A stretch of 64,000 nt of DNA, taken from contig CM022374.1 of NCBI GenBank assembly GCA_011800155.1, forward strand, positions 2,480,001-2,544,000, given 5' to 3'. Source of the DNA: Flammulina velutipes. Its lineage: Eukaryota; Basidiomycota; Agaricomycetes; Agaricales; Physalacriaceae. Positions 28,532 to 63,084 of the stretch are shown here, piece after piece. The position numbers were made by a program, and so were the translations under genes. Numbering within the stretch: position 1 is the stretch's first letter; every line of letters begins with the position of its first letter. A model generated the notes under the pieces. It was not told where the DNA came from and did no database searches. It saw nothing but the letters and a program-made list of their open reading frames with translations.

Positions 28532-29255
28532 TAGGCCGATGAAGCAAAGAAAGTAGCAGTTGTCGACCGCATCTGTTTCTTTAATTGTAAGTACTGTGTT
28601 TTGGACGATCTTTCAATATCTACATTGCACAGTATACTACCCCGTGTGCTAAATCTACTGAGTTAAAATCGATGTTCTTCCACTGAATCTGGACTTGTGA
28701 CTTACCACTCACTCTGTCTTTGTTGCCGTGGGTGATTTGCAAATAATGGACCAACTCAGAGAGAAAAGTAGTTGATTCCAGTAGAGCATAACTATACATT
28801 TACACATCATGTTGTAACTGGTTCAGGATGCGCTAAGCCAAAGGTGACCTTAGCTATAGCCTATCAACAAGATAACCTTACAACGACGTGCCACATACAC
28901 AAGTCGTGGTGAACCTCGCCATCCGGAACACCGAGATGGTAGCCTTTCATTTATCTCGATGATTCGAAATGGAAGTATTTTATTTTCTTCAATTCACATT
29001 CAAGTACAACCAACATTCAGTGTTGAACGTTGAACGCTGAAAGATTGAAGCCCAATGAACACTGTAAATGCCTTTCGCGCTCCTGTTGACTATGCAATCA
29101 CATTTCATTCCCTTGACTCTTAATCTTTGGTAATAATCGTTCTAACTGATTGAGAAATAGATCCACGTCGCTCCGTATTTGCTACTCAGCAAAGAGAGGC
29201 CTTGGAAACAAACACGCGCAAGCTAGAGTCGTCCGTTTGTCTATCTGCGACTACC
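28532..29255. other. intergenic K1-K2, no gene recognised
   Basis: AT-rich, with no convincing frame on either strand. Confidence 0.4.
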
Positions 29256-31953
29256 ATGGCAAGGTATGTATGTCTCGCTTGAATTTAACGCTCGGTTCTT
29301 ACCTATACCAATGGCAATAGTGCAGTAATGCCTCCGAGTCTGGCAAGCGATGATCCGTATGTCGTAACCCTGAGTCTGATTTTACGCTGATACTTACTGG
29401 AACAATTTTAGACCACGCTCAGATACGCCGCGCACCATTCGTCTGGGTAACACCCAGGGAAACTTCCATCACAGCCGCAAGGAAGTCGCATCGGAAATGC
29501 ACAACGAAATGTTGACTTGCACAATGGCGACGTTCCGCGCGCACTACCTCCCTTTCAGCCCGACAGAAGAGGCAGTGGATGAGGGTATACGCCTATTGAG
29601 AGGAAAGGGGTTGTTGGTGAAACCGGTCAAGCAGACAGCAGCTGAAAACGACAATAACTCCGATAGCGACGCCAGCGACGCCAGCGGCTCCAGCGACGAC
29701 GACCTCGTCTGGCATAACAATGTGCTGCCTTCCGGTGCTCCAACGGAAACAATTGGGTTCGAACCGCTTTGCAAAATCTCAGACTGTCTCGAGAATGTCA
29801 GCATCGAAGGAAGGAATGCGAATTATTGCATGAAACAACGGCCTTACCACCCACCAAAGTCAAGCATCTGGGGTGGCTCTCAGCAAATGGACGGGTGCTG
29901 CTACGAGAAAGAGAAGTTGGATGCAAAGTCACCATTGTCGATGGGGAACATTGGTCGGATTGACGAGTACAAGATGAAGAACACACCTAAAGATGTGAAG
30001 GAAGTGCGTCATTCTGTGTTCTATCGATTTTCTGCTGACTTGTAGTTTTAGAATCGCCTGCAAGTTGTTAGTGGCGCCGCCTTCGCGATGAACGAGAGCC
30101 CCAGGCGGATGTTCATCTTCGGAGTACGTTCCTCCAAATTATACCTATCGTCTTCATCTGACGCACTATCAGCTCACCATCGAGGACGACATGGCATCTC
30201 TGTGGCACTTCTCCCGCTCGCATTCTACCAAGTCTGAAAACTTCAATTGGCAGAAGGCACGTCGAACGTATCCAAGACTTTCTCCATTGTCTAACATCAC
30301 GTCGTCAGGATATTCGCACTATGGTCGCTGTTCTGCTCTCCTTCATTTTCGCCTCCCAATCAGAATTGGGCTTTGATCCCACTGTTACTCGATTCAATCC
30401 CACGGATGGCAGCCCCGAATATTTCGTTTACGAGGTTCAAGACTCGACTTCTCAGGCGAAGAAGTATTTCAAGACAAAGCGCTCGATTTCCGAATACCCA
30501 TCCCTGTGTATCTCTGGACGATCGACCCGCGTTTGGCTCGTCGAGGAGGTCATTTCCGACCAAGACCACACCCCAGTGGATGGAAAGGAGAAGGTGCTGA
30601 AGGATGTTTGGCTCGACGAGGATGCCCAAACGGAGCGACAAATCCAAGATGATATCTTCAGAGATGTTGATAGTTTCATTGACAAGGTCGAAGCGAGGAT
30701 GGATGTGCCGGAGCTTTCGACGTTCCAGAAAGATATACAGCAGGAATTGAAGGCGCTGTTGACAGATGGGATCTATAAACAACATTTCCTCACAATTTAT
30801 TGGGATGGCATTGGTATGACATCCAAAATTACCGGCGCCCATTCAAGAGTGGACCCCACGATATTCTCGTCCCACGTATCATCCACGGTATCCCCTCAGA
30901 CTCCGGCGGCAGATCAATCGCGCTCTCAAATGCACACGATGCGCAATCCACCACCGACTACACGATCGGTTCCTTTACCTCGCAAATTCGCTCCGAAACG
31001 ACAATATCGTGTTGTCTATGAGGAGGTCTGCCAGGCGATGCAGGAGCTAGAGAGTTTTGCCGATTCTATCAAAGCTCTGCGTGGCGGAGTGATCGGTATG
31101 TGTCAGTGGATCTATGCTCACCCTCACTGACCATATCTTGAAGCACTCATATTGATGTACTTCGCTGGTCGGATTCATCGGGATATCAGTGGTGGAAACA
31201 TTCTATGGTTCACCAATGGAAATGGCAATAAGAGAGGAATTCTGGGTGACCTTGAGTATTCTAAAAGGCCATCAAGTTTTCCACCCAGTCCCGATCCAAA
31301 GACGGTATGTATGATTATGGTAATCTGCTTCCTTTCTAACCCTCTCGCAGGGTACGCCATTCTTCATGGCACACGAAATCATGAACTCCTCCCCGCTGTA
31401 TCAACACCCTTCGGAAATGCCTGATCGGGGACAAAAAGGGAAGAAGCATACCCGTGACCTCTCGCACAATTTCATTCACGACGCGGAGTCGATTTGGTGG
31501 TTGCACCTGTGGACAATGACCGCGCGCGTCCGACATTCCTCCTCCCAAACTCTCGCACACGACATCTTTATCAACCAAAATATGCCTTCTTCCTGCAGAA
31601 GTGCAATGTTTTTCGGGGAAATCGAACTTGTCGATCATCTGCATCCAAAGCTCCAAGGAGTGTCTGCGCTATCAGACTCTGCCCTCTCTGCCCTCTTCAA
31701 TGCACATCTACTTGCCCCGGCTGCTCGTGATGCGGCTGTCTATTCAACCGTGTACACTGCTCTCCTTGATCTTTGTACAGGCACTGCACTTGTGGATATA
31801 CAGGATCTGAAGCCATACCCAGAAGGTCGGCTCGCTCCGTCTCCATCACATCGTAGTGCGCAGCAAGACCATCTCGACGATGATGCCGAGTATACCCCCA
31901 GCGACGATGGAGTTGATTTGGATGATAGACCCATGAAGAAAAGAAAACATTAG
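29256..31953 (+). CDS. FunK1-type fungal protein kinase K2, 780 aa
   Basis: Eight exons join in phase: 29256-29263, 29321-29356, 29412-30003, 30052-30123, 30173-30256, 30309-31095, 31144-31304 and 31351-31953. The first exon is only 8 nt. The intron at 30257-30308 has a GC donor (AAG|GCACGT) where K1 and K3 have GTACGT. Kinase motifs: IHRDISGGNILWF, GILGDLEYS and WWLHLWTMTARVRH. An acidic Ser/Asp insert (NNSDSDASDASGSSDDD) sits in the N-terminal domain. A basic tail (DRPMKKRKH) suggests nuclear targeting. This is the most complete copy of the cluster and the reference for judging K1 and K3. Confidence 0.88.
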
Positions 31954-33018
31954 CATTAAGGGGTAGCTGCGCTTTGTTGCCATGATTTACTCTCAGCCTG
32001 AATGCTATGGTGTAGACTTATATTTTGTGTGTGATTTGGTCCATCTTTTAACCTGCTCAATGTCAACTCTCGTCTCGCAAATACTACACACAGGTTCTCA
32101 AGACATACCTAGGTCGGCGTCTCAACCGTAATCGCAAAGGCACAACCGATGGTGACGAAGAGGACGGTCAACGTCAACCCTGACGATGAAGAGAAGCTGA
32201 CAAGACGAAAGATGGTCGAACATCTCTCGCGGCGGAGTCTCGCCGAACGTTGTGTACATCTTATTGATTTCTCGGTTGTTTACATATGTAGTAAATGTTC
32301 AATGCAATTCTGTCCACGGAAGGTCACGAGATCTTCCTCCTTCCATATCCTTAGCCTAGGAGGAGGAGGAGGAGGAGGAGGGGGTCGTGGGAACGGTTTC
32401 CAAGATTTGAATCTTGGGACGTTACTTTGATGTAAGCAATGAGAATGTCATTATACTTATAACATTTAGTGTGGAGTCAAAGTATCTGTTCGACATCCTG
32501 CGCGATGTGGGGGAAGGCGGAGCCTCCGGGCTCCGACAAAGACAGACCCTCCTGGAAACGCGGTCAGCTGCGATGGGTGGGTGGGCCCGTCGCGGGTGAC
32601 CGTAGGAGATGGTCTGCTCGTCAGAGCCATACGCGACGTCTGCTTGCTTCTGTATTGGGACGGGAGGGCGGGAAAGAAAGAAGCCTTGCTCTTCGACGGA
32701 CACGACGGCTTCGTCGAGTCTGCTGGTGGCTCGATCACATCACGTGTCCGTCCGAAGACATAAGTTTCTGAGCGCTCGTGCCTCGTACTCTGAAACTCTC
32801 AATCTCTTGGGAAAATATGTGCTGCTTTGTCCGGGCCGACCTGCTCCCTAGATTTTACGCACGACGAGTTGCTTGTAGATCTGTAAACGACAGTCGAGTT
32901 TCGTTCTCCTCGCAGACTTTCATATTTCTTCTCGACCATTCACAAATCATAAGATTATTCATGTAGTAATTACATAATAATCTCTCTTTCGCCACCCACT
33001 CTCATTATCGCTGCTAGC
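31954..33018. other. K2-K3 spacer with duplicated flank and (AGG)n
   Basis: About 31980-32300 is a diverged copy of 35450-35760, both downstream of a kinase gene. It contains a short open frame starting MVTKRT at 32149. An (AGG)n microsatellite lies near 32358-32381. The rest (32400-33000) shows GC-rich frames without a family match. Confidence 0.5.
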
Positions 33019-35434
33019 ATGTGGCTCTCGCCGGAACAAATGTTTACTTGCCCCCTCGAGACATTTCGAACACATTACCTACCATTTAAACCAACCGATA
33101 AAACAGTGAAGGATGGTAAATATCTGTTGACTGCCTCCGGACTCTTGATCAAAAGAGACGCCACCGAAGCTACAAGCCAACGTTTAGAAGATGACGACGA
33201 AAACAAAGTCTGGGGACCCCAGGCGGCCGTTGCAGGCGATCTATTCGAGCTTGAGTCACTTGCCAATATTTCTCGATGCTTGGAGGACGTCAATATCGAA
33301 GGAAGGTCCGCAAACTATCGTCTCGAACATCGTCCCAAAAATGCACCACAACCAAGTATCTGGTCCTCTGTCGACTCGGAAACTGAACCAGTCATGGACA
33401 TGCATGGCTGCTTCTACCCTCAATCCGAGCTAGTCGACGGCGTCCCGCTAGCTGTCGGGAATATTGGCAGCCTCAACCAATACAAGGGGAAGAAAAATGT
33501 ATTGAGGTCTAATTTGTTATGAATATGGCTCGTTAATCTTTGTTTCAGAACCGACGGCACGTCGTTAGTGGCGCCAATTTTGCAATGAACGAGAGTCCCG
33601 AGCGGATGTTCGTGTTTGGGGTGCTTTGCATTCTACTTTCATGCCGTCCCCCTTCTAATGTCATCCTAGCTCACTATTGCAGGCGACATGGTTTCTGTGT
33701 GGTACTTCTCTCGCTCACATTCCGCCAGATCTCAGAGCTTCAACTGGAAGAAGGTACGTGCTGGCTGGAAATTTTATATATTCTCCATTCAATATCCTTA
33801 TCTTAACAGGATATTGATGCTCTCGTATCCATCCTGCTCTCCTTCATCTTTGCCTCTCGTTCAGAATTGGGTTTCGATCCCACCGTGACTCGATGTCAAC
33901 CTCCAGCAGGGGGTCCCGAATACTTCCTCTACAAAATCCTGGATTCGCGTTCTCAGGAGACACACTTCTTCAAGACTCTGCGTTCGATATACGCATACCG
34001 CCTGGATATTTCTGGGCCAGCTACGCGTGTTTGGCTGTGCGTCGAGGTCAAATCTGGCCAGGACCACACAGCGGTTGACGGGCGTGAGATGGTGCTGAAG
34101 GAAGCTTGGGTCAGCGAGAACGCTCGTGCCGAGCGCGAAATACAGGACGATATCTTCCGTGACGTCGATACGTTCATCGAAAAACTCAACACGGGCATTG
34201 AAGTGCCAGAACTGTTCAATTTCGAGGAATCGATCCGGGACGAACTGCGCGCTCTATTAACAAACAGCCTGTACAAACGGCATTTCCTCACGATCGCTCA
34301 TGACGGCAACGGGGGAACTTCTAAGACTGTCGCTGACGCTACAAGGCTTGGACGTGTTTCCATATTTCGACGTTTTCCCTCTGACTCTGACTCTTCATTG
34401 GACTCAATCGGTGGTCCTTCGACGCCTACCTTGACGCTTAGCCATTTCGCACGCAGGTTTGCTTCTAGGCGGCAGTATCGTGTTGTTTATGAGGAGGTCT
34501 GCCAGGCGATGCAGGAGTTGAAGAGTTTTCCTGAGTCTATGAAGGCTCTGCGTGACGGAGTTATTGGTGCGTGCCAATGTCCTCATACTCGCTCTCATTG
34601 ACCATGTCCTGAAGCGCTCATCATCTTGTATTTCGCTGGATGGATTCATCGGGATATCAGCGGCGGAAACATTCTATGGTTCACCGATGAAAACGGCAAT
34701 AAGAGAGGGATTCTGGGCGACCTTGAGTATTCCAAAAAGCCATCAAAAGAATCGCCACCCAGTGCCGACCCGATGACTGTATGTATCAATGAGTATGATA
34801 TCTTGGTTACTTTCCAACAACTTTTCAGGGTACACCATTCTTCATGGCATACGAAATCATGAGCCTCACCCCGCTGTATCTACCCCCTTTGGAAAGGAAC
34901 TGGAGCGAGACACAAACAACAAAGATGCCTCTCCCCGACGTCTCGCACAATTTCCTCCACGACGCGGAATCGATTTGGTGGTTACACCTGTGGACAATGA
35001 CCGCACGCGTCCGACACTCCTCCTCCCAAAGCCTCGCACACGACATCTTCGTCAACCAACTTGTGTCTTCCCCCAGCAGAACACGAATGTTTTGGGGGAG
35101 AACCAATCTTGTTAATCATCTTCATCCAAAGCTCCTCGGGCTGTCTGAGACGTCGGGCTCTGCCCGTTCTACCCTTGTCGATGCACATCGAACTGCCCCG
35201 GATGGTCGTCCTCTGCTTGTCTATTCAACTGTGTACACTGATCTACTTGATCTTTGTAGCAACAGTGCACTTGTGGATATACAGGATCTGAAGCCATACC
35301 CAGCAAGTCGGCTCGCTCCGTCTCCATTACATGGTAGTGCGGAGCAAGACCGTGTCGACGATGATGCCGAGTATACCCCCAGCGACGAAGGCGTTGATTT
35401 GGATGATAGACCCCTGAAGAAAAGAAAACATTGA
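33019..35434 (+). CDS. FunK1-type fungal protein kinase K3, 720 aa (K1/K2 mosaic)
   Basis: Exons 33019-33498, 33549-33620, 33670-33753, 33810-34566, 34615-34778 and 34829-35434 join in phase. From 33019 to about 34660 the sequence, introns included, is nearly identical to K1. After that it follows K2: GGNILWFTDENGNKRGILGD, LEYSKKPS, DDDAEYTPSDEGVDLDDRP and the basic tail KKRKH. Catalytic motifs are intact (IHRDISGGN, GDLEYS). The mosaic points to gene conversion or unequal crossing-over. As in K1, the start MWLSPEQ follows an acceptor-like GCTAG, so a missing upstream exon is possible. Confidence 0.87.
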
Positions 35435-35449
35435 TATTAAGGAGTAGCT

Positions 35450-35760
35450 GCGGGCTTTTGCCATGATCCTCCGTATATACTCTCAGCCTGAATGCTATGG
35501 GTGTGATTCGGTCCTGCTCAACGTCAACTCTCGTCTCGCAAATACTACATACAGGTTCTCAAGACATACCCAGATCGGCGTCTCAACTTTATTTCGACTT
35601 CAGCGCAAAATGGTGACGAAGAGGACGGGCAACAAGTTGAAGGCCAACCCTGACGATGAAGAGAAAGCAGCTGACAAGAAGACCCACGAAGAAAAGGAAG
35701 CAAGAACATCTCTCGCAGAACGTTGTATTCATACATCTTATTGATTTCTGGGTTCATGTA
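35450..35760. repeat. duplicated kinase 3' flank (other copy ~31980-32300)
   Basis: Shares AGGTTCTCAAGACATACC and an open frame (MVTKRTGNKLKANPDDEEK, from 35610) with the flank of K2 (MVTKRTVNVNPDDEEK, from 32149). The frames diverge and stop at different places. Either a small charged-protein gene or shared 3' UTR; both copies moved with the kinase. Confidence 0.6.
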
Positions 35761-36009
35761 GTAAATGCTAAATGCAATTCTGTCTATGGATGGATGGGCC
35801 CCACTGGATCACAGTACATACATACTTCTACGTCTGTTAAGAGTCCATGTATGCGAAGAGATCTAAACAACACGCGTATATATAAGAGTGGAGGAGATGA
35901 GCTGATGTACATAGGTATCAAGAGGAGAAGAGAAATGAACGCCAAGACCAATAGGTCAAAACATAAAATGAAGTCGAAGGTCGAAGATCGGAAATAACAA
36001 AGGAATCAA
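35761..36009. other. intergenic
   Basis: No gene seen; 3' flank of the next minus-strand kinase. Confidence 0.35.
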
Positions 36010-48801: not shown

Positions 48802-49433
48802 GTTTAGTGTTTGTTATAATGGTTAAGAGCAAGAGAGTAACATACGAAGTTGGTGGTTCAGTTGCAAGAAATGAAACAACTTTGTTGAAGCGTGTTTGGC
48901 CAACTGTTCCATTGTTGAACACGCAAATAGTCATGCGTCATCGTTCTTCACACCGTGGACAAGGTAATTTACCCTTGGTGTAAACTCTTTGACAAAACTC
49001 TCTTAGCTGATAAGACGAAAGATATCTACATTTACGATTATATTTTACAATAATTCTTTATGTACATATTCCGGTAGCGATGTGCTAAGTAAATAAATAA
49101 ACAACCTGAATGACATATGCCTTTGTAAATGTATACGCAAATCTGATGAGATAGCATCTGAGAAAAGCAATATACGCCTTCAATAGAAAGGATACGTATA
49201 TACAGGACACAGATAACAAACGGTGAACATTGATTAGCTAGGAGATAGAAATGAGTCCACATATTTCATGTTCCTAGTTCCATATCGCCGAAACTCATAA
49301 ATATGTATTTTCTCGCGTCTAGATATCAGTCTCACGGCCAGCGTCCGCCGTAAAGGCGACGAGCTGCTGATGAGCGCCAACCTCAAGTCCATGTGATCAC
49401 TGCTGTTGAAAGGGAAAAAAATGAGAAAGCATA
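48802..49433. other. spacer with a GC hairpin beyond the transposase stop
   Basis: Mostly AT-rich 3' flank. At about 49338-49362 a GC-rich palindromic stretch (GGCCAGCGT then CGCC-GTAAA-GGCG) stands out. It shares the 9-mer GGCCAGCGT with the repeat at 55667-55741 and lies 70-100 bp beyond the transposase stop codon. Confidence 0.45.
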
Positions 49434-52400
49434 TCAAGGTGAGAAACAATGGATTCTCACTCGACCAAGGTCTACAGTAACCATACGTCCATCATACTCG
49501 AGCTGTGCAATATGACAGACTATGTTGAGCGGGGATATAACGTCGAGATCGGAAACCGTCTCCAAAGAATAGCTGGTGGCCGGAAACCACGGAAAGACAG
49601 AAAATGAGTCATACTCGCCAGCAGGAAGAGGACGATATCGTGAGATATGGAACTGGACTTTTGAGCCATCCGACGAAGCTGCGATCCTCTGTATGCTCCC
49701 CGTGTAGGTTCTTGTCAATGATCCGGGAATCGAGTAACGCACAAGGCTGTTGCCAAGATGCGTACTTTGGCGAGTGTAAAGATAGCCGTCGTAGGCGTAG
49801 CGAGCTGTCTCTCCCGATTGCGTGCCTGGTGCGAAGTCGTTATTGTCATCCTCCGAATACTGACGCGACAGGGCCTTGTCCAAGAGTCGCTTAAACTCCC
49901 GGATTATTGGTGGGCAATTCTGATGCCTCAAGAGCTTGCGTAGGTTCGATCCTCGAGTGAACGACCTGACGATGGTGGTTTCGGCTTCGCCTATAAAAGT
50001 GAATTAGACTACTTACTGTATACGAAGGTCATAAGAAACTCACCTCCGATAAGAGTATTTGTGTTGATCTTCTGAACTGTCCCGATAAGACGCTCGAAGG
50101 GGAATGTCCACCAGGAAGTCACTGGACCAAAAAGCTTTAAAAAATCATAGATGTGGAAAGCCGCATGCACATTTGGTCTGCGCTTTTGTGTTTGGGTATG
50201 CGGATGAACCCGGTGTAATCCATCAACCCACGTCTTTAACAAGTGGTGGTATGCTTCCATTCGCTCCACGCTCACGCTGTAACGACATAGGATGTTGACA
50301 GCTTGGAACAGCGCCATGGTATGTGATAGGACCTCACGTTCACGAGGCGAAGAGTTTTGAGACCCGAAAAGGGTGATGAATGCGATAGGAAGGTAGACGG
50401 TCGACAGAGTACGCCATTCGTCTGCCTTGATGGTCCCTTCGACTGCTTCGCCGAAGCGCTTGGGTACGGTGTTGATCCATGTGGGGACAGTACAATCCCT
50501 GATTACTGCCTGGATGTGGTCGATAACATCCGATGTTACGTTTCGAGATGGAGTCAAAGAAGGGTGAGGTTGTTTATCGCGCTAAACATGACAATCAGTA
50601 GTGCCCGCTACAACGAGTCTAGGTACTTACCCATCTCATCAAGGCTTCCGTGTATTGTTCCTTATTCTTGAGAGGCGTGTTAAGAATCCTACGTTCAGTT
50701 TCATCGCTCGCCAAAGTGAAGACAAGTGTTCGCGTCAACTCGTGAATTCCAAGTGACCAGGCCACGAATCGAAGAGCAGCTTTGGGCTGCTTGAGGAGAC
50801 GACCTTTAAGTACGTCGCGGGATAAGGAATGTTCGCCGGATTCAAAGGGGTGTTGCAGGAGGTCTTGGATAGTTTCGATGGCTTTTAAGCACTTTGTGAG
50901 GTTGTCCTTCGCTAGATTGATTTGGGCGTTTGGGGGAACATTCGCATGCACGTACGCTTTCCAGGGATGGACGAAAGCGGCGGATGGTTTGAACTTCTTC
51001 TCAGCAGCCTTTCTGTCGATCTCAAGAACGTGACGGCAATGGTAATGGACCAATCCTTCCAAAACACAGTGCATGCTGTCGATAACAAGCATGCGGGTGG
51101 GATTCCAATAGGGTAACCTCCAAAACTCCGACCAGCGTATACCGTGAGCATCGAAGATTGCTTGTTGGCTGGCAGCAGTGTCGGCTCCTAAGTAGTCCTC
51201 AGCTGCTTTCCGGAGAGTATTCACGTCCCGCAAGTTCCATGGAAAGGTAACGTTGTAACTCTGGGCAAATTGATCGCAAACAGTGCACCACGACGAAAGA
51301 GGGCCCGCAGCGCCTCCGACCTTTCGGGCGGCTGGGAGGTCGTTGACAGAGATGACAACAGCGAAATCCATGATACGGCCTGTGGGGGAAGACGCCGTCC
51401 GTGAAAGTCGAATCCCAGTATTCCAACCGACCACACACACATCGATTATGGGTTCCAAGTAGCATGGCAACTCGTCGTAGTCAGGTTCCTTCGGTCCTGG
51501 GATGATAGAGGCCATGAATATGTTTTCCGGCTTATAGCGCATGTCGGCGGGAAGGTTGAGGATGGCAATGGAGACGATGCCAAGAGAGTCGCTTGCTCCT
51601 CGAAGGGTAAGGCCGTTGGGGTTGAAAAAGTCGACTTGCATCGCGAGAGCCAGTCGAGCACGGTCTCCTCTATCGATAAAGAGTTTGCGTGTGGACGGTG
51701 AAGAAGGGGGGGCCTGGAATGTCCGTAGGAAGTCTCCGTCGAATGCATTCTGCAGGTTAGGTTGACATGCAGAAGTGTGTCCAGCAGCATGATTTACGCT
51801 GGCGAAAGCATCGTCGCAGGCCTTGTCACAAAGCCGCTCGAGCTCTTCATCGGCGAGAACACGGGCAAGATGATCCTCTAGTGAGGCGACGGGATATGCC
51901 TTTTTGGGGCGCAAAGTTCCATGCCGTAGCGAGGTCAGTTCGTGACCGCACGGACGCCGACGAGCTTGGGGGTTTTCCTTGTCAATGATCATACGCCCAC
52001 ATGTTTTGGGATACTTGGCAGTGACCGAAACACCACTAGAGAACTCGGGGCGATGGCAGTAGCTACATGATGGACATACTGCATATATAGTGAGTTTTCC
52101 GTCCAGGTTGAGAGCGTTGAGGGAGGAGTATAAGGTGGAGGGGAGCTGTTCTAGGACATGCTCATGGAAGGGGGTTTTCGGTTGACCCGACCGACCGACC
52201 TCGAGAGAAGCTCCAGCGATGAGGCCAGCAATACTGATGATGAAGTCGCAAGCTGCGTACAAGAGACCGAGGACGAGATTACACGCCAAACCCAGGAATA
52301 TGATGAGCTGGGCGACGGCAGTCTTCCCCTGGAGAGGATCTTGAAAAAAACGGCCTGCAACACATTAGTTTGAGAAATCGAGAGCTAGCGCCGACATCAC

Positions 52401-53317
52401 ATACTTGTTTCGATCACAGGAGGTTCTGCCGTTGTCCGAGAAGGCAAGGTCGTACCAAGCAGGCTGATGATACCGTCCAGCTCTTGCAAGTTACCCCTGG
52501 CTGTGGCAAGTTCCGCAACGTAGTCGTCCTTTTTTCGTCGCCGGACAGCGGAGAGACTCTGACTTAGACTACGGGCGGTATCACTGGTAGCGTCCAGGAA
52601 ATTGTATCGTTGTTCTAGGGCGTGTTTGTCGTTGGGGTTGACTGGATGTAATGACCTGAGTTCTTTGGCCAGTGCCTCTGCCTTGTCTGAAACGTTCTGT
52701 ATGACGGTATGGGCACGTTGGGACTTCGTGAGATGGATTCGACCAGCCGCGCGATTGACGCTTCGAGAGCCACCACGAAAGGTTGCCGGCGTCGCCTGTC
52801 CAAATAGGCCAGACTGAAACACTGAACGCACGCCATGTTCTAGATCACTGAGCGAAACTCCTGCTACGCTGGAAGGGATGGTGGAAGAAATGTTGGTTTG
52901 ATAGGCATTCCTCGAAGTCCAGAGTCTGTTTGGGGCTTCATGTGCGGGGGGACCATCGCTGATTGTCGTAGCCGCTACCATGTCCGCCAGTTGGTTAAAT
53001 ATTTCGTCGTCTGATCGAGAATCCTCTGTCATGCGCGAAGACGCGAATCTATCTGCTAGATTGGCGCTCTCAATATGTTCAGCGCCGGCTCTGGAAGTCC
53101 CTTCTTGAGCCAGACTAACTGGTGCAACACCTTCAACCACTGGGGAAACATGTCCAGTTGTTAACTGACGCTGCAGAGGAGTGAGGGATGATTATGACCT
53201 CCATATTGGGAAACTCACCAAAGCCTGAATGCGTAAATGTTCCGACTGCTGGATAGATGTCGCCTGATGGGGAGGATAGAGCGTACAGAGACAATTCTTG
53301 ACGCGAGAACGACTCAT
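49434..53317 (-). CDS. Tnp2-type (CACTA/CMC superfamily) transposase, 1227 aa
   Basis: Exons 53317-53219, 53170-52405, 52354-50631, 50581-50044 and 49990-49434 join in phase with no stop or frameshift. The protein begins MSRSRVKNCLCTLYPPHQAT. An N-terminal helical region (KSQRAHTVIQNVSDKAEALA) and two short hydrophobic stretches (LIIFLGLACNLVLGLLYAAC) follow. The core shows the pattern I recall from agaricomycete Tnp2 transposases: CPSCSYCHRPE, PADMRYKPENIFMASIIPGP, SWCTVCDQF, VIDSMHCVLEGLVHYHCRHV and PFERLIGTVQKINTNTLIGG, ending with AETTIVRSFTRGSNLRKLL. An RNase-H-like catalytic core is expected for the family; the individual acidic residues cannot be assigned by eye. An intact frame suggests recent or current activity. 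Confidence 0.85.
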
Positions 53318-53566: not shown

Positions 53567-53953
53567 TTTGACGCAAAGTCAAACCAAAGGGAAAAACACG
53601 AAGTTTTTCACCACTGGGACGCTCATGAACGCAAAGTTCTCGAGCAGATAGTTGTATTGACACTAGCCACTGTGAATCTCGAGGCGCATTGCCAGGTTCT
53701 CCGTGAAGACTCCACAAGGGTCAAGTTGATGTTCGCCTGATGCCCAGTAGCGCATTGCGAGAGCGCCTTGTGTCTAAAACGATATGTTCGTGAGCCCTTG
53801 TTAACGAGAAGAGAACAATAGACAGATATACCATGGTAAAACTAGATCCATCAGACATAGGTCGCCAAGGTCTAGACGATTTGACACAGAGTCAACTCGC
53901 AAAGCAGAACACATAGTTCTGCTCCACTAAGATGCTCAAGGACACAAAGTCCT
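53567..53953. repeat. hairpin cluster 1, left half (6 hairpins)
   Basis: Upstream of the transposase gene. Stem-loop-stem units: TTTGAC-GCAAA (53567-53583), GAAAAAC-ACGAA (53591-53609), GAAC-GCAAA (53627-53639), TTGAC-ACAGA (53881-53895), AGCAGAAC-ACATA (53903-53923), AGGAC-ACAAA (53939-53953). Each is followed by the perfect reverse complement of its own left arm. Loops read RCANA (or ACGAA) on the plus strand. Confidence 0.9.
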
Positions 53954-54224
53954 GAGCGAGCGTAGTGGTGGGCGCTGGGCAACCTTAAAGAGAATTGCTG
54001 ACATAACCCGACGCCTGGATCCGTCGCCCTCGATCATCTGTCGCCCTCAGTCTCATCTACATCATGATCTACCGGATGAATTACGATCTCTGTTCTCCTA
54101 AGTGCGCTATCGGTATGTCTGCTCGCCTCTACGATACTGACGTGTTGTGCTATCTGGAATAACGGCGACTTGGAAGTTTATATCTCAGCTTACTCAGCTT
54201 GCCGCCATTTCCGTTCTAACTACC

Positions 54225-55549
54225 ATGTCCACTGAATCTACACTGGAAAACTTCAAGAATAGGTGCGTTTTTTTAATCTAATTCTCAATTCGCAAGACCT
54301 TTGTGGTCTTGCCGAAGACTTTGGGTCTTCAGTCGGCTTGAGAAGACTGTGAGTCCTCGCACACCGTTTTACCTCCTTGCCTCAATTCTAACCCAACGAA
54401 TAGGATGTTTGTTACCCAAATTGTGGTTCTCTCAGGAATGTATGTACCCCCTCGTCTCTTTTTCATAAAATCTAATCCATCGCAGGATGATAGGATGTAC
54501 GTTATGCATTCTACCTAACGTTCGTCAATCATGATTATACAGTCGCAATCGCGCAATATGTAGGACTGGCCACCCCTGGCGGGCGGAATGGGAAAAGAGT
54601 CTTCATTGCTGTTTGTTCTTCCAGATTTTAGTATTCATCAGCTGCTGACTACTTCCAGTCTTCTGTAGCCGGCATATTCCTTCTCGCGCATTTTGGGATC
54701 GTCGATGCATTTCTGATAGGGGAATTGGACAAAAAAATTGCCACCCGTCTATCTGCCGTTGCTGTGGCTCTCATGGGCTGCGCCACGGCCACTACAGATG
54801 GCTATTTCGTTCTCTCATTCTTGACCTTTTCAAGGACCGTCCCCTACCCACTTCAACGTCTTCTCCGGATCCAAATTTGGATTAGCGGTACTACCATCTT
54901 GGCAAACCTCGTTTTCAGTATCATTGCCACGGCGGGAATATTACTCGACAATCAGTTTGTAGTCAAATCCTTCATCGTCGCTACCCACTCAGCTTCTATG
55001 GCCACGGACTTCATGTGCGGAATGATCGGATACACTATCATCTCTCAGTTCGAAGAGGCCTCCATGGAAGCAGTGCAGCATTACCTCAGGAAGCAGGTAA
55101 TCATCGGTGTTGCTCTGTGTCTCTGCAAAAATTTGACGATATTGATAGAAATACCTGATTACTGCTACACGCGCCCTTACCGTATGCCTATCGTGCAGTG
55201 TTATCACAATGGTGCGCTACTGCTTTGACTCCAACTCCAACTCCGAATATCTCTATTGATCCACCCTCTAGACAGCTTCGTCCAATATCGGGATTGGGAG
55301 GGTCATCCAAGTGTTCATTGTTCCTAGTAAGTATAATTGACCCATATCTGACTATACTAAGCTTTGGTAGGTCGTGTCATTGGCATGTACGGGATTCTCA
55401 ATCGTCGCAAGCGGAGGCATGAAGATTCGGACTGCGAGGTTTACTTCGTCCCTTCCTCAGACGCGTTCAACTTCGACGGGAGTGTGGAGTTGACTGAATG
55501 CAGAGGAGATGATGTGAGCAAAATTGAGACGGGCGAAGCAATAGAGTAA
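54225..55549 (+). CDS. multi-pass membrane protein, DUF6534-like
   Basis: A clear coding block at about 54660-55095 encodes at least four hydrophobic segments: SSVAGIFLLAHFGIVDAFLI, LSAVAVALMGCATATTDGYF, WISGTTILANLVFSIIATAG and VVKSFIVATHSASMATDFMC. A last exon encodes the tail GRVIGMYGILNRRKRRHEDS, ending at 55549. Hydrophobic pattern and tail position resemble the DUF6534-type membrane proteins common in Agaricomycetes; function unknown. The 5' exons are short and tentative, starting at 54225 (MSTESTLENFKN). Intron 1 (54263-54403) is unusually long for this locus and contains three of the hairpins. The gene faces away from the transposase and towards the 55773 gene. Confidence 0.55.
54292..54355. 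repeat. hairpin cluster 1, right half (3 hairpins, in an intron)
   Basis: GCAAGACC-TTTGT (54292-54312) and GAAGAC-TTTGG (54314-54330) have perfect stems; a third at 54339-54355 has one mismatch. The loops are the reverse complement of those in the left half, so the array is mirrored. Confidence 0.88.
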
Positions 55550-55666
55550 AACCGCACAGTCTTCTTGAACGCAAAGCAAAATGTATTATAATATCTTGTA
55601 TGTACACTATAGGATACGTGTATTGGCTCGTACTAGGATTGACTTAAGTTGTAAATTTGGGACGAG

Positions 55667-55741
55667 CGCACAAAGGTCCATCTCGCCATCGGCGAGAAGG
55701 TGGCCATAGGCCAGCGTTGGCCTTTGCTGCGTGCGGATAAG
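55667..55741. repeat. GC-rich repeat A between convergent genes
   Basis: About 75 bp, inverted relative to 60337-60412, with only a few mismatches (shared start GCACAAAGGTCCA, shared end TTTGCTGCGTGCGGATAAG). It contains nested short palindromes: CTCGCC-ATC-GGCGAG, GGCC-ATA-GGCC and GGCCA-GCGT-TGGCC. It lies 118 bp beyond the stop of the membrane gene and 32 bp beyond that of the coiled-coil gene. Confidence 0.9.
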
Positions 55742-55772
55742 TGTACATATTAGACATATATTATACTGTATA

Positions 55773-58132
55773 TTACAGATCCGTTATAGTGACTGCGTGC
55801 CATTCGAAATCGGGTTCTTCTACGTACATGTCCGTTGTCTTCACATGTTCTGTCAACCAAGCAGAGTCGTAGAATGGCCTATAGAGTCCCTCGGGTGCGC
55901 GCTGCGTGCTAATCTCGTTAGTATACCGACGCTCTGTCGCTATCGTCGTCGGAACTCCCTTTAAAGCAGCTGCCTTCGCCTCCCTGTCGATAGTCCTGAG
56001 CGCTAGCGAAAGAGTCGTGTCTCTCCAAGGGGGCTGTCCAATCAGGTACACGTTATGCTTCGTGCCGTCGCTCTTGGTTTCGATGGTGAATTCCTCATCG
56101 GTCATGACATCCGGACGACACTTGGAGAGTCCCGTAGCCCACTGTCTCCAAACACCAAGATCTGGAGGGGCGGGTTGTTCGGCTTCCTTCATCGACAAAA
56201 TTACGTTGACCCAATACTGTCGACGTTGTAATTTCTAGATTGATTTGTTCTTAGGCATTCCGACACGTAATGAAGAGACTTACTGCTGTACGAATAGTAG
56301 TCAGGCTTGCCTGTCGGAGGCTCTGTTCTCGTTCAGAGGTCGCCCGAGCTAAAGCTTCGTCTGGTGTCTCTACCCTGTCCTTCTTGTCGTCCCGCCTTGG
56401 CTGCCATTGACTCCAGTGCTTTTGACATTGTACAAGTGAGCTATGGAGCAGTCCGGCGAGGTAGCCATCAGAAACGGGAGGTAGCCAAGATTGCTCCTGT
56501 GCGGCCAATTCCTTGAAGCGACTAGTAAGTCGTTCGATGACTCGTCGGTTCCAGATATGACTAGTAAACTGGTTGCCGAAGTACAGATGGCACTTTTCGT
56601 CGGGTCCTGCACCACTCCCATTCGAAAATGCTTCAGCTTCAGCGTCACCCACGGGAGTGTAACCGCTGAAGTCACTGTAGCCAGGTACTCCGTATACCTC
56701 TCTCCACAGGTCGCGGTTCATGGCCTAGTACAGTAGCCAACACCTTAGTGCATGGCTAATGAAAAGCGGGAAAGGAACTTACGTGATATTCATTTGCATA
56801 GTCGGAACGAGCACATCTATAATACACCGCGAGTTGATCAAGGTATTTGGCCCAAGTTGCCCTTTCCTCTGCGATAACTCTAGTCCAGGAATAGTGACTA
56901 CGAATGAGTAGTCGTTCCTCAGGACCGCGTGAAGCGTCAACGCCAAGGTGAACATAGGTTTCCGGAGGTTGAGGTTCTCCTACTCGAGGAGCGCGAGGAC
57001 CTGATTGAGGAGCTGCGCCATCGGCCATTGATGATTGCACAGAGGCTCCTGCGGTTGAGGCTCCATTGGCCATTGGCGACGGCATGGAAGTTCCTGCAGC
57101 GGTACTGCCATCCATTGGCACATCAAGACGAACTGGAAGTGCTGGAAGGGGAGCTGCCAGTTTAGATGCATCGAATTTGCGTCCACGCGCACGTCCACGA
57201 GCAGGCCGTCGACGTGTGTTATATGGCTCTGGAGACGGAGATGGGTTTCGTGGTGTCCTGAACGCCTGGGAGAGAATGAGCTTACTTGTCATCGCGAAAA
57301 GACGGTACTTGACCTGTTCCAGTTGTGACTGCAATTTGACAATCTGAATATTTCTTTGCTCCTGAATGAATTTAATTATGTTTCGTAGACCGCATGATTA
57401 TGGAGACATACCAGGATTTTGTGATGTTCTCTAGCGTTCGATTCAATTTGAGCTTCAAATGATTCTCTTTGGGCAGTCTATGATCGATGAGCGTCAGGGC
57501 GGCATAACGGGTAGAACACGAACCAGTAACGCTTCAGTTTTCATGGTAGCTTCGGCCAAGTCATTAGCGTGCTTTTTCGTGGCCGATAAGAGGTCTTGTT
57601 GCAAAATCATTGTCGATTTAGAGAGTTCGGCTTTCTCGAGAGTAATAGCTTCAATTTGACGATTCTAAAGAATGTCAGCAAGGAGGATTAGTGCTCTAAG
57701 AAAACACGAACCGATGACTGCAAAGCCTCTTGCAAGACCTCATATTTCTCCTCAAGATCTTCGAGCTCTTCCAATCTGCTCATCTCGACATCCTCGCCAT
57801 CGAAGCTCGCCTCAGCAACTCGTAGATTTAATTGCATAATTTCGTGATCCCGGTTCCGTATGTCCTCGGAAAGCTTTCGCACGTCCACATCTCGTTGAGA
57901 TAGATCCCGCCTTAGCTCTTTTTCGCGCGTATAAGCCTGATCTAGTTTGGCCTTCAGGTCGTTTATAAGTTTACGCCTTTCTGGGGCCGCCGTCTTCTTT
58001 TTCGGAGTCGGAGCAGGTGACGGTGACGGACCATCGCCCAGGTGGGGTCGCTTATTGGGGGGCTGTAGAATATTTGAGAAAAAAGCGATGGAGAAGTAAA
58101 ACGAACCTTACATCGGATGGATTGTCAGACAT
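55773..58132 (-). CDS. coiled-coil protein of an agaricomycete multicopy family, 686 aa
   Basis: Seven exons join in phase: 58132-58112, 58062-57712, 57664-57524, 57477-57412, 57361-56783, 56724-56284 and 56234-55773. A Pro/Lys-rich N terminus (PPNKRPHLGDGPSPSPAPTP) leads to ~200 residues of coiled coil. An Arg-rich segment (TRRRPARGRARGRKF) and an Ala/Pro/Met-rich linker follow. The C-terminal region (YVHLGVDASRGPEERLLIRS, SGYTPVGDAEAEAFSNG, RAPEGLYRPFYDSAWLTEH) matches an uncharacterised family I recall as highly multiplied in Agaricomycetes. High copy number would fit transposon-associated cargo. It is divergent from the 58731 gene across hairpin cluster 2. Confidence 0.75.
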
Positions 58133-58311
58133 GGGTTGGGTGTTGGAGGACTGGAGCGTCAGACAGCGTATATAAGAGATGTAAGGCGGAACACTACCGC
58201 GCGATGGAAATCTATCTTATTGTCAGTTTCAAGACAATTAGGCTATTGTTCACATACCGAAAAACGATAGCCACCCATTCAGTTGGCGTTACAACGATCA
58301 AGGAGACTGAC

Positions 58312-58570
58312 TCGACGCAAAGTCGAAACAGACACCAGTGAATCGCCACCGAAGACGCAAAGTCTGCGGGCTATCATCTGAAGACGCATAGTCTTCAGAT
58401 GATAGTAATAAGCCAACCGCTGATTTGTCATCAGCCGGGGATTGACTTCTGCTTCTACCACCACCACCACGAGTGCTAGGCAATGACTTTGGGTCATTGC
58501 TCTGGTATTGCTGAAAAGCGAATGACTTTGTGTCATTGGCTAGGCTTTTGCTTGGACTCTGTGTCCAAGC
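58312..58570. repeat. hairpin cluster 2 (6 hairpins) between divergent genes
   Basis: Left half, loops read on plus: TCGAC-GCAAA (58312-58326), AGAC-GCAAA (58353-58365), and a 15-bp perfect stem CTATCATCTGAAGAC around loop GCATA (58371-58405). Right half, mirrored loops: GCAATGAC-TTTGG (58480-58500), AATGAC-TTTGT (58521-58537), GCTTGGAC-TCTGT (58550-58570). A CCACCACCACCAC run at 58458-58470 marks the midpoint. Confidence 0.92.
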
Positions 58571-58730
58571 TGATTATTGTCTTCAAAGCGCGAACTTCGG
58601 GCCCATCACTTTCCGCTTTATTGTGTACGCGTTTGGATACCCAATTGTGAGTTTTTCTTAGCATACATAGTAGTGAAACAATAATAGCATCTGTATTTAA
58701 GTCTTCCATTATGCCCGTCTTTTCATTATC

Positions 58731-60271
58731 ATGCTACCCTACAAACAATCGAAGAAATACGCTTCCAAGAAAGCACCCGGCAAGAAAGCGACCAGCAAGA
58801 AATCGACCAGGAAATCCGCGAAACTTCGAAGTCCCACACCTATCCGTCCCACTCGTAGCCCTCGCCCCAAGAGCAACTTGATTCATCCTTGTGAGGAAGC
58901 TCGCCGTGCTCGAAAATCTACAAGGTTCTTCGAGAAGCTCTTTGCAGCTAATGAACCATCGGAGGACTTCATGGCATCTTGCGCCCGGCAATTAGCCACT
59001 GTGTATGACAGTGGCCTCATTGTCAGTTTCAACCCTCGCACTGTTCAGTGGGAGGAGGTTAATAGGTAGGTCAAATTTTATCATATACCTTCCATTTCTT
59101 ACCGCCATCGTAGGCCTTTCATCCTGCGGGACGACGGAACAATGACCTCTCTGCACGGATTCCAGTTTGGTTCTGCTCTGCCCACGCTTATCTGTCCGCA
59201 CTCCCTAAATCCTTACCGCTGCTTGGAGGAATGTACGATGTCATTATTTCGTACTCCAGATGGCATCGACTACTTCGAGGCCCGAAATGGCCTCCATAAA
59301 TGCTCGCTTCGTGGTAAGCGGCTTTTCGAGCCTTTGTACGCGTAAATTAATCCGCTTGTAGTGCTAGTCCCTACCATGAATGATCCTCTGAGTGACGAGT
59401 TCGCTTGGGAGCACTCTCACTATCCTCACACGCCCGAAGCCCAAGCCCCTCTTCCTCCCTTCCATGTTTACTTCAACCGCGAAAAGGCTAACTCGCGTGC
59501 CCTCTATGGTTAGTTACTTTTACTATTGGCCCCATATATTTCGTTGATTATCTTTTCAGACACCGAGTTTTGCTCCCGAATGGAATCGTCGTACTGCAAG
59601 GGTGATTTCTCGTCAGGTAAAACTTTCGCTTGTAACAATGAGCTCGTTCTCAGACTGTCAAATTCAGGTGTAGTCGTCCATCCAACACATACCATTCCTA
59701 CGGCAGAAGTCTTACGTCCATGGGATTTATCTTTGGATCAGACTGCTCATCGAAATGCGAACCATTTTACCCAGTTCATTGGAACCGACATCGGTCATGC
59801 CATTAGAGAGCTCCATTCGACGTGTGGTATACCCTCTGAAACATGGCACACTATTCGGGACGATTGCGTCGTCTGTTCGATCTGCTCGTGTGCTTTCTCA
59901 AACGCGGGTTATTTCGATCATATCGTCCCCGGTGGATATTGCCACAACTGGTATCAGCGCCGCAAAGGTCAGTATCTTCCCTGTGACGAACTCATCATCG
60001 TACTGAATGGCTTCATCTAGTGATTCCCGACATCAATCAGCGACGAACCACTCTGCAGCGCACTCCTACCGTTCCAGAGGGAGCACCCGATTGGGCTGAT
60101 GTATTCGCGCCGAGCCGTGCAGCCTTGATTGAGTGGAACTCGCGAATCGGTGTTCCTAGGGATGTATGGGCAGTGATATCTACGATGGAAATTAACTGTG
60201 ATGGATGTGGTCGGTGTCGTTCTTATGCGGCGCATAAAGCACACCTCCAAGATGGTTTATGTAGTTTCTAG
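58731..60271 (+). CDS. tandem zinc-domain protein, 429 aa (446 if one intron is kept)
   Basis: Exons 58731-59065, 59114-59313, 59362-59508, 59560-59616, 59668-59967 and 60021-60271 join in phase. The N terminus is very basic (KKYASKKAPGKKATSKKSTR), suggesting nucleic-acid binding. The last ~170 residues hold two related copies of a Cys/His unit: GIPSETWHTIRDDCVVCSIC followed by H and C, then GVPRDVWAVISTMEINCDGC followed by H and C. Each has the pattern x-I-P-x-x-x-W-x-x-I..C-x-x-C-x-x-C..H..C. The segment 59617-59667 has intron borders but is 51 nt long, stop-free and in frame, so splicing may be optional. No named family is assigned. Confidence 0.72.
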
Positions 60272-60336
60272 TCACTGTAATTACCTGTATTTCCAGACAT
60301 AGACCGTGTACATGCTTTTGAATGAATGAATAATTG

Positions 60337-60412
60337 CTTATCCGCACGCAGCAAAGGCCAACGCAGGCCTTTGGCCAGCTCCTCGCCGATGGCGAGGTGG
60401 ACCTTTGTGCGT
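60337..60412. repeat. GC-rich repeat B between convergent genes
   Basis: Inverted copy of repeat A. It contains CCTCGCC-GAT-GGCGAGG and GGCC palindromes. It lies 66 bp beyond the stop of the zinc-domain gene and about 130 bp beyond that of the 60544 gene. Confidence 0.9.
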
Positions 60413-60543
60413 GCTACACATGCCATACACTTGCGAGAACTTGGACTTACAATTCACTTTCGAGACAACCAAATTTAAAAAAATTCCCAAACAAATCGAT
60501 TAGATCAAGTAATTTTACAGCGACGGATATCTAATGACAACGT

Positions 60544-62720
60544 TCAAGATAAGGTGAAAGGTATGATAGCGGGGCGTCCCAAAACGTCGTATACAAGTTG
60601 TAAATAATGTTCGATCAATGCACGTTCCCAAAGTTCGCCATCCTTGAAAGGCGCATCCGCTTTAAGGGGCTCCGGTAGCGGGACCTCCCATTCAGCCATG
60701 ACATCTCGCCATTTTTCCAAGTAAAGAGAGCGTAGTGGCCACTCTGGATTATGTAGGCCACTGAGGGCGCGAGTTGAATCCACTACCGTCAAAGACCTCT
60801 CAGGGAAAACGGCCAAGAGTTTCTCTGAATGCTCCAAGTCTGCTCCCAGGGCCTCATCCTGCTCATGAGCGACTGAGTTCCGTGGGTTCTTGTAAAGGCG
60901 GCGGTCGACATAACTCAAATCACTACGGAAGCCGATCTGCGAAACCTCCCAAAGTATGAGACGGCGTTCCTGTGGCACCGTTTCGCCCATTTCAGGTGGC
61001 GCAATGAGAGACTGTTGGAACTCCATCCCTTGCATTTCGAAGCATTTACCGAGGAGCTTCTTCGCCTCGTCAAATGAGGCGCTAGCGCGAGATTTTGGGT
61101 CGGCGGACTTCTCACTTGACCGAAGACCAAGTATTTCTCGCCATTGTTGTTTCGGGAGCATGGAAGATGATGATGCCACTCGATAGATAAAAATATCGCG
61201 GAGGTAGCGATATTGCGCAAAGTAATCCGCCGATTTGACCGTACCAACGAACATGTTAGAAGGGGGGTAAGAGTATTGATGTTTCGTGGGACGTTCATCG
61301 AGGAAACGAGTGGATTGAATGTTGATCTTGGCATTCATCCCTATCCAATTTTTCGAGATGGGGGGATAATCATCGCCAACACAATCTTGTAAGAGAGCAG
61401 GGGAGAGATCTGTACGAAACATAAATTATGAAATGTGTACATCGCGCGAGAACTAAACTTGGCCTTACTGGTCTTGGGATTCTTAGTGGTCTGGGCACTC
61501 TGTTTTGCTTTGGAGCGCTGAGAAGGGCCAGCTCGGTAGGAGTCTCTCCGTTCTTGAACCTTTTGTTGAGTAAAGCGAACGGGGCCTGCCGAAGGCTTCG
61601 AGGATGAAGAAGGCGCTGCTGCTGGGGCGATGACTTGCGAATTTGAGCCGCGGGCATCTCGAAAGGAATATGGGTCGGAGTAGGTTATGAAACGAGCGAC
61701 GTAGATAGACATTTGATGGAGGGCGTCTACTGACTTCTCCCCATTGGCGAAGACGGTAGGAAGAGGTTTATCCGGTAGAATGAAAGGACCAAGATGGCCC
61801 AGCTCGCATGTTGATAAAATTCTGACGTTGACAAACGCAGACCATGGGCGCATGAAATACGTCGGAACTTTTGCAGGGAGAAACAACTCGACGACATGCA
61901 GAGCTGAGGTGTAGGTACCGACGACACGAACCCGTAGCTCGTTCTCGTTCTCGTTGTCGAGAGCCAGTCCGTTCATGAGTGGTCGATATATGGTCATGTA
62001 ACGTATTGTGGCCAGGAGGAGGAGCCATGTCCTCTGGAGACCACGTACAAGGACGCGTAGGGAAAGAATGTCCTTCGTCAACGAAGAAAGACGGTCAGCG
62101 TATAGCTGCATACGACGCAATAAGAGGGGTAAGAGGTTGCGAAGGCTTGTATTGTCAGGAGTGTCGTTGAGGTAGGCCTCAGTCTTGACTTTTAGAGCGG
62201 TCACCGAACGATTAAGCGGGTCAAGAAATTTGCGATTGACTCTACCGATTCCCGATATGACGCCCTGAGTCCAGTCGATATCCTCAGATTTTAGGAGGCT
62301 CCATATGCAGCGGTCTTCATGAAGCGGATGCTGCGTATCATCCGACGCTGGGCATAATGGGACGACTGCTAGTTGGGGTATGGATTCATGGTACCATTGC
62401 GGGGCGCAGACAAAATCGTGAGGGCCGAACGATCCGTCTCGATACACTTGAACCTTAGCGTCTGGGGGTGGCGGGGGAATAGACTTGACGGGGCGATGGC
62501 AAGTAACGAAAGATGTTTCGAATATTGTACCGACGTAACCGTCGTGAGCACTCAGGATATCTGTTATGTGTGATGAGCATTTGACAATAAGTCCCATGAA
62601 GACAAAGACTCCAAGAGCTCAAAGCTCTCGCAAATGCGAAAACAACTCACTGGTTTCACCTTCCTTTGGTGCGTATCGGGTAAGGTCATCGACACGGAGA
62701 AATCTGCTTGTGGAAGACAT
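60544..62720 (-). CDS. agaricomycete multicopy hypothetical protein, 675 aa
   Basis: Exons 62720-62651, 62560-61469 and 61409-60544 join in phase. The start MSSTSRFLRVDDLTRYAPKE and motifs SAHDGYVGTIFETSFVTCHR, WYHESIPQLAVVPLCPASDD, SALHVVELFLPAKVPTYFMR and VNVRILSTCELGHLGPFILP match an uncharacterised family I recall in many agaricomycete genomes. A basic, Ser/Lys-rich linker precedes the C-terminal third (ISKNWIGMNAKINIQSTRFL). There is no signal peptide and no recognised catalytic motif. The unusually long intron 1 (62561-62650) holds a hairpin of the cluster-3 type. It converges on the zinc-domain gene across repeat B. Confidence 0.75.
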
Positions 62721-63084
62721 TTTGACCTAGTATAGGTCAGTAAACTCATCGGCTAAGGGCTCAGCAGACGGTCGACGTACGATAAGTGTTCGGGATGATA
62801 GAAGCAAAATCAAAGAATTGACACAAAGTCAATTCTACAAGTTCAGAACACAAAGTTCTGAAGTGACAAGGGGACCAAAAACACAAAGTTCTTGGGTTAT
62901 TGACTGAGTGATGAGATGTGGAAGGAAGCGAGGTTGTCGTGATCGCGTGGATGGCGTGATGGGAATTTCATGTTCACCACCGACCACCATGATCCATCAC
63001 CAGCAGATGCAATGACTCTGCGTCATTGCGCCTTGCTCTCCTGTACTTTGTGTGCAGGATGGCATTGATGACTATGCGTCATCA
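62614..63084. repeat. hairpin cluster 3 (7 hairpins)
   Basis: Left half: AGAGC-TCAAA (62614-62628, in intron 1 of the 60544 gene), AGAATTGAC-ACAAA (62814-62836), TTCAGAAC-ACAAA (62842-62862) and CCAAAAAC-ACAAA with one mismatch (62874-62894). Right half, mirrored: GCAATGAC-TCTGC (63009-63029), CCTGTAC-TTTGT with one wobble (63040-63058), TGATGAC-TATGC (63066-63084). CACCACC runs lie at the midpoint near 62980. No plus-strand gene is seen to its right. Confidence 0.9.

Follow-up and report, generated by a model that had tools for sequence, protein, structure and literature searches.

We analysed a 64,000-nucleotide stretch of the Flammulina velutipes genome (GenBank assembly GCA_011800155.1, contig CM022374.1, positions 2,480,001 to 2,544,000; C7:2480001-2544000 in our numbering), hereafter called the window. 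It contains most of a large DNA transposon, in which short hairpins stand in groups of three at the 5′ sides of several genes. BLAST of the transposon copies placed the element at 48949-66950 (18,002 bp). The window ends inside it, and coordinates beyond the window end continue the same numbering (window+L010). The features of the element are listed in Table 1.

Table 1 Genes, hairpins, and repeats of the transposon. All hairpin positions are those of the window.
Feature	Position	Strand	Remarks
Left terminal inverted repeat, CACACCGTGGACAAGGTA...	48949-48970	+	Copy comparison
Tnp2-type transposase gene	50619-53140; open reading frames (ORFs) 50619-52289, 52397-53140	-	Pfam Transposase_21 match in first ORF
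Second Tnp2 hairpin module	53567-53639: 53567-53583, 53591-53609, 53627-53639	-	
Tnp2 hairpin triplet	53881-53953: 53881-53895, 53903-53923, 53939-53953	-	
G54 putative coding first exon	54225-54262	+	38 nt
G54 putative first intron	54263-54485	+	223 nt; holds G54 triplet
G54 hairpin triplet	54292-54358: 54292-54312, 54314-54330, 54340-54358	+	Last hairpin imperfect
G54 longest ORF	54725-55228	+	Hydrophobic; genome matches in five copies only
75-bp inverted repeat, left arm	55667-55741	.	Borders segment inverted between copies
Gene G58m	56251-58132; ORFs 56251-56721, 56756-57334 and upstream exons	-	Putative start codon
G58m hairpin triplet	58312-58405: 58312-58326, 58353-58365, 58371-58405	-	Last hairpin with 15-bp stem
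G58p hairpin triplet	58480-58570: 58480-58500, 58521-58537, 58550-58570	+	
Gene G58p	58731-60271	+	429 aa; six predicted exons; Lys-rich N terminus, Cys-rich C terminus
75-bp inverted repeat, right arm	60337-60411	.	
Gene G61	60544-62720; main ORF 61341-62597	-	Start codon 62720-62718 inferred; ORF 60544-61422 may belong to G61
G61 predicted intron in 5′ untranslated region (GTACGT...CTAG)	62727-62780	-	Between triplet and start codon; four-copy alignment, by eye
G61 hairpin triplet	62814-62895: 62814-62836, 62842-62862, 62875-62895	-	Last hairpin with one wobble
Sixth hairpin triplet (G63)	63009-63084: 63009-63029, 63039-63059, 63066-63084	+	Putative gene
Right terminal inverted repeat	66929-66950 (window+L010)		Outside window; copy comparison

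The host element and its copies

The genome searched (38 Mb, 23 contigs) contains five copies of the transposon, designated W (the window), A (C9), B (C5), D (C12), and E (C7:0.93 Mb). A host enzyme encoded in the window had its nearest matches in Mucidula mucida (92%) and Armillaria (88-89%), which places the host probably in the Physalacriaceae. Copy A was 99.92% identical to W over 18,004 aligned bases. Copy B showed about 82-88% identity over most of its length and 73% in parts of the right end, where some sequence remained unaligned. Tnp2 of copies D and E was 81% identical. D and E were read in four pieces each (10,771 and 10,738 bases), and hairpin counts in these copies are limited to those pieces. 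Pieces of six element proteins (Tnp2, G54, G58m, G58p, G61, and a WD40-like protein) each matched all five copies. G54, G58m, and the WD40-like piece had no other match in the genome at the threshold used, and distant relatives of Tnp2, G61, and G58p were also found elsewhere in it.

Both ends of W, A, and B carry the terminal sequence CACACCGTGGACAAG[GA]TA, which is of the CAC..GTG type; D ends with one mismatch, and the ends of E gave no match to the terminal sequence with up to two mismatches allowed. Target site duplications (TSDs) of 3 bp were read in W (CTT), A (TGG), and B (TGA) only. The Transposase_21 domain (PF02992) was detected in Tnp2 with 45.5 bits in W and 43.4 bits in D (cut-off 28.6). 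Because terminal inverted repeats (TIRs) of the CAC..GTG type and 3-bp TSDs, which PMC12730594 gives as criteria for fungal EnSpm in the CMCT group, occur here together with a Tnp2-like transposase above the Pfam cut-off, the transposon is of the EnSpm/CACTA type. An identity as Plavaka was rejected: PF18759 reached only 15.9 and 19.1 bits (cut-off 26.3), and the termini are unlike TGT..ACA or CATCA..TGATG.

Hairpins are far more frequent than expected

A preceding sequence-only reading had counted 22 hairpins, 19 of them with perfect stems of 4-15 bp. We recovered 21, of which 18 had such stems; the median perfect stem was 6 bp. AC before and GT after the loop, as had been described, flanked 20 of the 21 loops (the hairpin at 54292 has CC/GG). 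Of the 21 loops, 17 fit RCANA or its complement TNTGY; those at 58480 and 54314 (TTTGG), 54340 (TGTGA), and 53591 (ACGAA) do not. The proposed limits 53567-63084 hold, and the element reaches past both of them and past the window. The three clusters are better seen as three pairs of divergent triplets, with an additional module at 53567-53639.

Between these limits, 15 perfect hairpins with five-base loops and arms of at least 6 were found, compared with a mean of 1.84 and a maximum of 6 in 200 dinucleotide shuffles. At least three of four outer pairs were formed at 16 of 17 cores (shuffles: mean 0.04, maximum 1), and the first five 9.5-kb blocks of the window contained 0 such cores each. Thus, the check on shuffled sequence that the reading had named left the shuffles far below the observed density, and the hairpin set is real and statistically strong. 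An Rfam scan of the window gave 0 matches at the gathering threshold.

Triplets accompany their genes through inversions

The hairpins form six triplets, with core spacings of 20-40 nt, on the 5′ sides of Tnp2, G54, G58m, G58p, and G61 and at a sixth site (G63). Across W, B, D, and E, 72 hairpins were assigned, that is, 18 in each copy. Loop orientation relative to the gene was constant in 72/72, with TNTGN on the sense strand in 71/72; in W, all 19 cores have TNTGN on the sense strand of the gene. The consensus core on this strand, 5′-AC-TNTGY-GT-3′, is nearly fixed, and the stem sequence is free. Additional hairpins were also present: a second Tnp2 module occurs in W and B, E carries two further cores at Tnp2, and the sixth site is tandemly duplicated in D and partially duplicated in E.

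The segment between the 75-bp inverted repeats has opposite orientations in W and B, and G58p and G58m of D and E lie in the B orientation. Relative to Tnp2, copies D and E have G61 the other way round from W and B. Despite these inversions of the G58 segment and G61, triplet order, orientation, and gene linkage were kept in all four copies, showing that the triplets follow their own genes. The 75-bp repeats (93% identity) lie at the 3′ sides of two convergent gene pairs and border a 4.6-kb segment, which likely flipped by recombination between them.

Pairing is conserved, and stem sequence is not

To avoid a biased choice of hairpins, we used all ACTNTGNGT cores in the sequence read from W, B, D, and E (85 cores, a few of which are clearly not hairpins). 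Outer positions 3-8 were paired in 77.8% of cases in these cores, compared with 35.4% (standard deviation [sd] 2.3) when the arms were re-dealt and 31.8% in 56 cores from 232,355 bases outside the element. Thirty loci of this outside control were fetched by a core pattern, so that core density there is inflated; only 1 of the 56 cores had at least five of six outer pairs.

We then compared the 18 orthologous groups of four copies. Two-sided exchanges of one Watson–Crick pair for another at positions 1-8 numbered 40, whereas 2000 shuffles within groups gave a mean of 13.8 and a maximum of 33; the 40 were counted over copy pairs and are not all independent. In a gapless alignment of 70 distinct hairpins, the covariation score was 0.657, compared with 0.182 (sd 0.017) for shuffled and 0.09-0.16 for slid partners. 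Because the stems covary in orthologous copies, it is the pairing that is conserved rather than the stem sequence. The covariation around a near-constant loop claimed by the sequence-only reading was thus borne out, and the test against shuffles and the search for compensatory changes in genomic copies that it had proposed both found such changes. A covariance model of 23 positions and 9 pairs was built.

In the 72 rows, loop positions 3 and 4 and pair 1 were invariant in 72/72, largely by construction, as the core motif served to pick 67 rows and the other 5 were chosen by hand (G54_H1 of W and B, G58m_H2 of E, the degenerate G58m_H3 of D, and G61_H2 of B). Outside the core, identity declines with distance from the loop. 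Loop position 5 is variable (T in 36 and C in 23 of 72) and together with the following base gives CpG or the related TpG, a pattern as expected of methylation-driven change.

Arrays are almost confined to this element

Two cores 8-17 bases apart on one strand occurred 13 times in the genome, 12 times in the five copies and once elsewhere (reversed control, 1). By this pattern, arrays were shown to occur almost only in this element; the restriction to 8-17-base gaps misses many true pairs, so that absence elsewhere is not proven by it. The single core GACRCANAGTC occurred 241 times, compared with 114 times for the reversed control. Among 30 loci fetched with it, no array was found, and five (L017, L021, L029, L035, and L041) had stems of 5-6 bp at the core; isolated hairpins of the same kind therefore exist elsewhere in the genome. 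No comparable triplets were present in the examined flanks of distant relatives of Tnp2 and G61 (for G61, L047-L049, 35-37% identity). Near the start of contig C5 (C5:39827-99308), the core pattern recurs five times at a spacing of about 14.8-15.0 kb among the matches listed, which suggests a long tandem array such as ribosomal DNA.

Action in RNA or in DNA

The reading that we prefer, tentatively and with a confidence just short of even, is that the hairpins serve as a 5′ regulatory tag used throughout the element and recognised by its structure, probably at the pre-mRNA level. The triplets would be transcribed as a 5′ leader or first intron and would fold in the pre-mRNA. One protein may bind them, reading the loop and its closing pairs, and the bound protein would co-ordinate splicing, export, or expression of the element genes. 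Such a reader would most likely be encoded by the element, and any choice of a particular protein is a guess. That the transposon thereby runs a structure-addressed RNA regulon, in which an element-encoded protein licenses only the element's own transcripts for splicing, export, or expression, is a further step that we regard as possible and rather doubtful. If this is true, the freely varying stems would leave host silencing without a shared sequence to target among the repeated tags.

Predicted splice donors, read by eye, lie roughly 30-75 nt past the triplets of G61, G58p, G58m, and Tnp2; taken over all tagged genes, the distance from triplet to predicted donor is roughly 30-90 nt. The G54 triplet lies inside the putative first intron, which is 212-233 nt long across four copies. 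The putative first exons of G54 are 38, 35, 29, and 23 nt long in these copies, all 2 mod 3, and are joined in frame to R-x-x-G-C; their donor dinucleotide is GT in two copies (W and B) and GC in the other two (D and E). The sense strand shows no shortage of ATG, with 46 in 2737 nt compared with 35 for the opposite strand, as would suit RNA that is intronic or untranslated. As RNA, the six W triplets fold significantly (z -3.1 to -6.9); for Tnp2, G58p, G61, and G63 the minimum-energy fold contained all three hairpins, for G58m two, and for G54 one. At pair 3, all six non-Watson–Crick pairs of 72 were G-U or U-G and none was A-C, as was noticed afterwards. A pyrimidine-tract test for a start site upstream of the first hairpin (H1) gave no signal (mean 0.595 upstream vs 0.574 downstream).

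Several observations weigh against this reading or are neutral to it. An RNA helix should favour G-U over A-C mismatches, but over whole stems there was no skew: sense G-U and A-C mismatches amounted to 11 and 8 independent cases (14 others) and to 11 each when counted by cells. In W and D, the G54 reading frame runs into a stop codon in the first 120 nt of exon 2, and all introns here are predictions. With an exonic leader, translation would be disturbed by the upstream ATGs inside the hairpins. Hairpins are lacking at the two genes in the right part of the element (about 63.3-66.6 kb), and the gene behind the sixth triplet is unproven and only putative. One of five alignment measures (pairs changed on both sides, 8 vs 7.1) was reached by 42 of 500 shuffles. 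No reader protein was found: Pfam gave nothing above the cut-off for G58p or G61, and the AlphaFold model of G61 was unusable (predicted local distance difference test score 46.7).

Alternatively, the hairpins may act as DNA: palindromes upstream of promoters would extrude under negative supercoiling, as hairpins or cruciforms, and be bound by an element-encoded activator, in the manner of phage N4, whose virion RNA polymerase uses hairpin promoters. In both systems hairpins are oriented 5′ control elements of genes; N4 is a phage genome read by a phage polymerase, whereas here three hairpins per gene stand in a nuclear genome with introns. If both strands matter, G-U and A-C mismatches should be about equally common, as they are, and the W triplets fold as significantly as single-stranded DNA (z -3.1 to -8.2) as they do as RNA. 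The triplets of the second cluster (separated by about 75-125 bp in the copies examined) and those of the third cluster in W (about 113 bp) face apart across short stretches between divergent genes, and a TATA-like stretch lies between the G58m triplet and ATG in W. However, a median perfect stem of 6 bp with a five-base loop is a small structure to extrude as a cruciform in chromatin; in D and E, the triplets of G61 and G63 are tandem rather than divergent; and action as DNA does not require strict sense orientation or a triplet behind the start exon. We consider this explanation possible but less likely than action in RNA.

It is distinctly improbable that a protein binds the 9-bp core ACTNTGNGT as ordinary double-stranded DNA while template-switch correction, and not structural selection, keeps the arms perfect. 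Correction of quasi-palindromes gives two-sided changes and treats both strands alike, in line with the balanced mismatches, and the innermost pairs and loop are the most conserved, in part owing to the choice of rows. In contrast, the single non-element core among 56 with at least five of six outer pairs shows that the core alone does not breed palindromes, and a constant number of three hairpins is left unexplained.

Hairpins and mobility

Searching the genome with the terminal 18-mer (at most 1 mismatch) yielded three inverted pairs, each bounding exactly 222 bp. These loci (L075, L076, and L077) resemble miniature inverted-repeat transposable elements, and their inner sequence is mostly unrelated to the giant element. 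They have the same TIRs, 3-bp TSDs (CCT, TCA, and ACA), and only about 22-42 bp of each end in common with it. Judging from the shared ends, they may have been moved by the same transposase. The hairpin core is absent from 3/3 of them; since these derivatives have the same termini and TSDs, the hairpins are probably dispensable in cis for mobility.

The EnSpm/CACTA type of the element would suit subterminal repeats bound by the transposase, an idea that the sequence-only reading had touched on. It does not agree with the position of the hairpins, which are internal, at gene 5′ ends about 4.6 kb and 3.9 kb from the transposon ends, or with their absence from the 222-bp derivatives, and we regard it as very improbable. 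Membership of the CACTA subterminal repeats was accordingly rejected on both position near the termini and presence in mobile derivatives. Chance or a compositional artefact, for which no support was found, is refuted by the shuffles, the non-element controls, and the orthologue tests and has a practically negligible probability.

Comparison with known systems

Multi-gene transposons need joint expression of their genes under repeat silencing by the host. A fixed loop combined with a variable, short stem, as in the present hairpins, is also known from RNA stem-loops such as Smaug elements and the yeast RNase III AGNN tetraloop. We know of no RNA stem-loop that matches the loop UNUGY with AC/GU closure. 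The nearest working analogue is the VANDAL/VANC system of Arabidopsis, although the VANDAL transposase family differs from Tnp2. As described in PMC10398659, short repeats are likewise clustered in noncoding regions of a multi-protein DNA transposon, an element-encoded factor acts on them, and the targets of VANC are specific sequence motifs in tandem repeats. Unlike those targets, the arms here vary with pairing kept around a fixed core. Known solutions thus use specific-sequence repeats bound by element proteins, and a tag of drifting sequence and fixed shape would be a different one. The tag idea is directly testable, since each copy offers about 18-21 natural hairpins and the copies differ by natural compensatory changes.

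In the open-licence literature of PubMed Central, we found no description of such hairpins in fungal transposons; the words “hairpin” and “subterminal” occur 0 times in the main text of PMC12730594. In the part of the element proteins that was scanned, we recognised no TET/JBP gene.

Relatives of the element proteins and other observations

Protein searches outside this genome found one relative of G58p, in Tricholoma furcatifolium (33% over half), and three of G61 (59-80%). None was confirmed for G61 or Tnp2 in the viral contigs searched, and a PDB sequence search with G61 gave no match.

A WD40-like gene, named from a reading of its sequence, occupies 63200-65150 (window+L010) on the minus strand and has a hydrophobic segment; the region between it and its divergent neighbour is without hairpins. 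The predicted mini-intron of G58m (58220-58260, with equivalents in L071 and L072) holds a second inverted-repeat motif, ACAAT...ATTGT, and GAACAATAG strings akin to it are found close to predicted splice sites in other genes of the element. Outside the transposon, 26165-35784 contains three tandem diverged copies (about 72-86% identity) of a gene block, the protein readings of which resemble a fungal kinase family.

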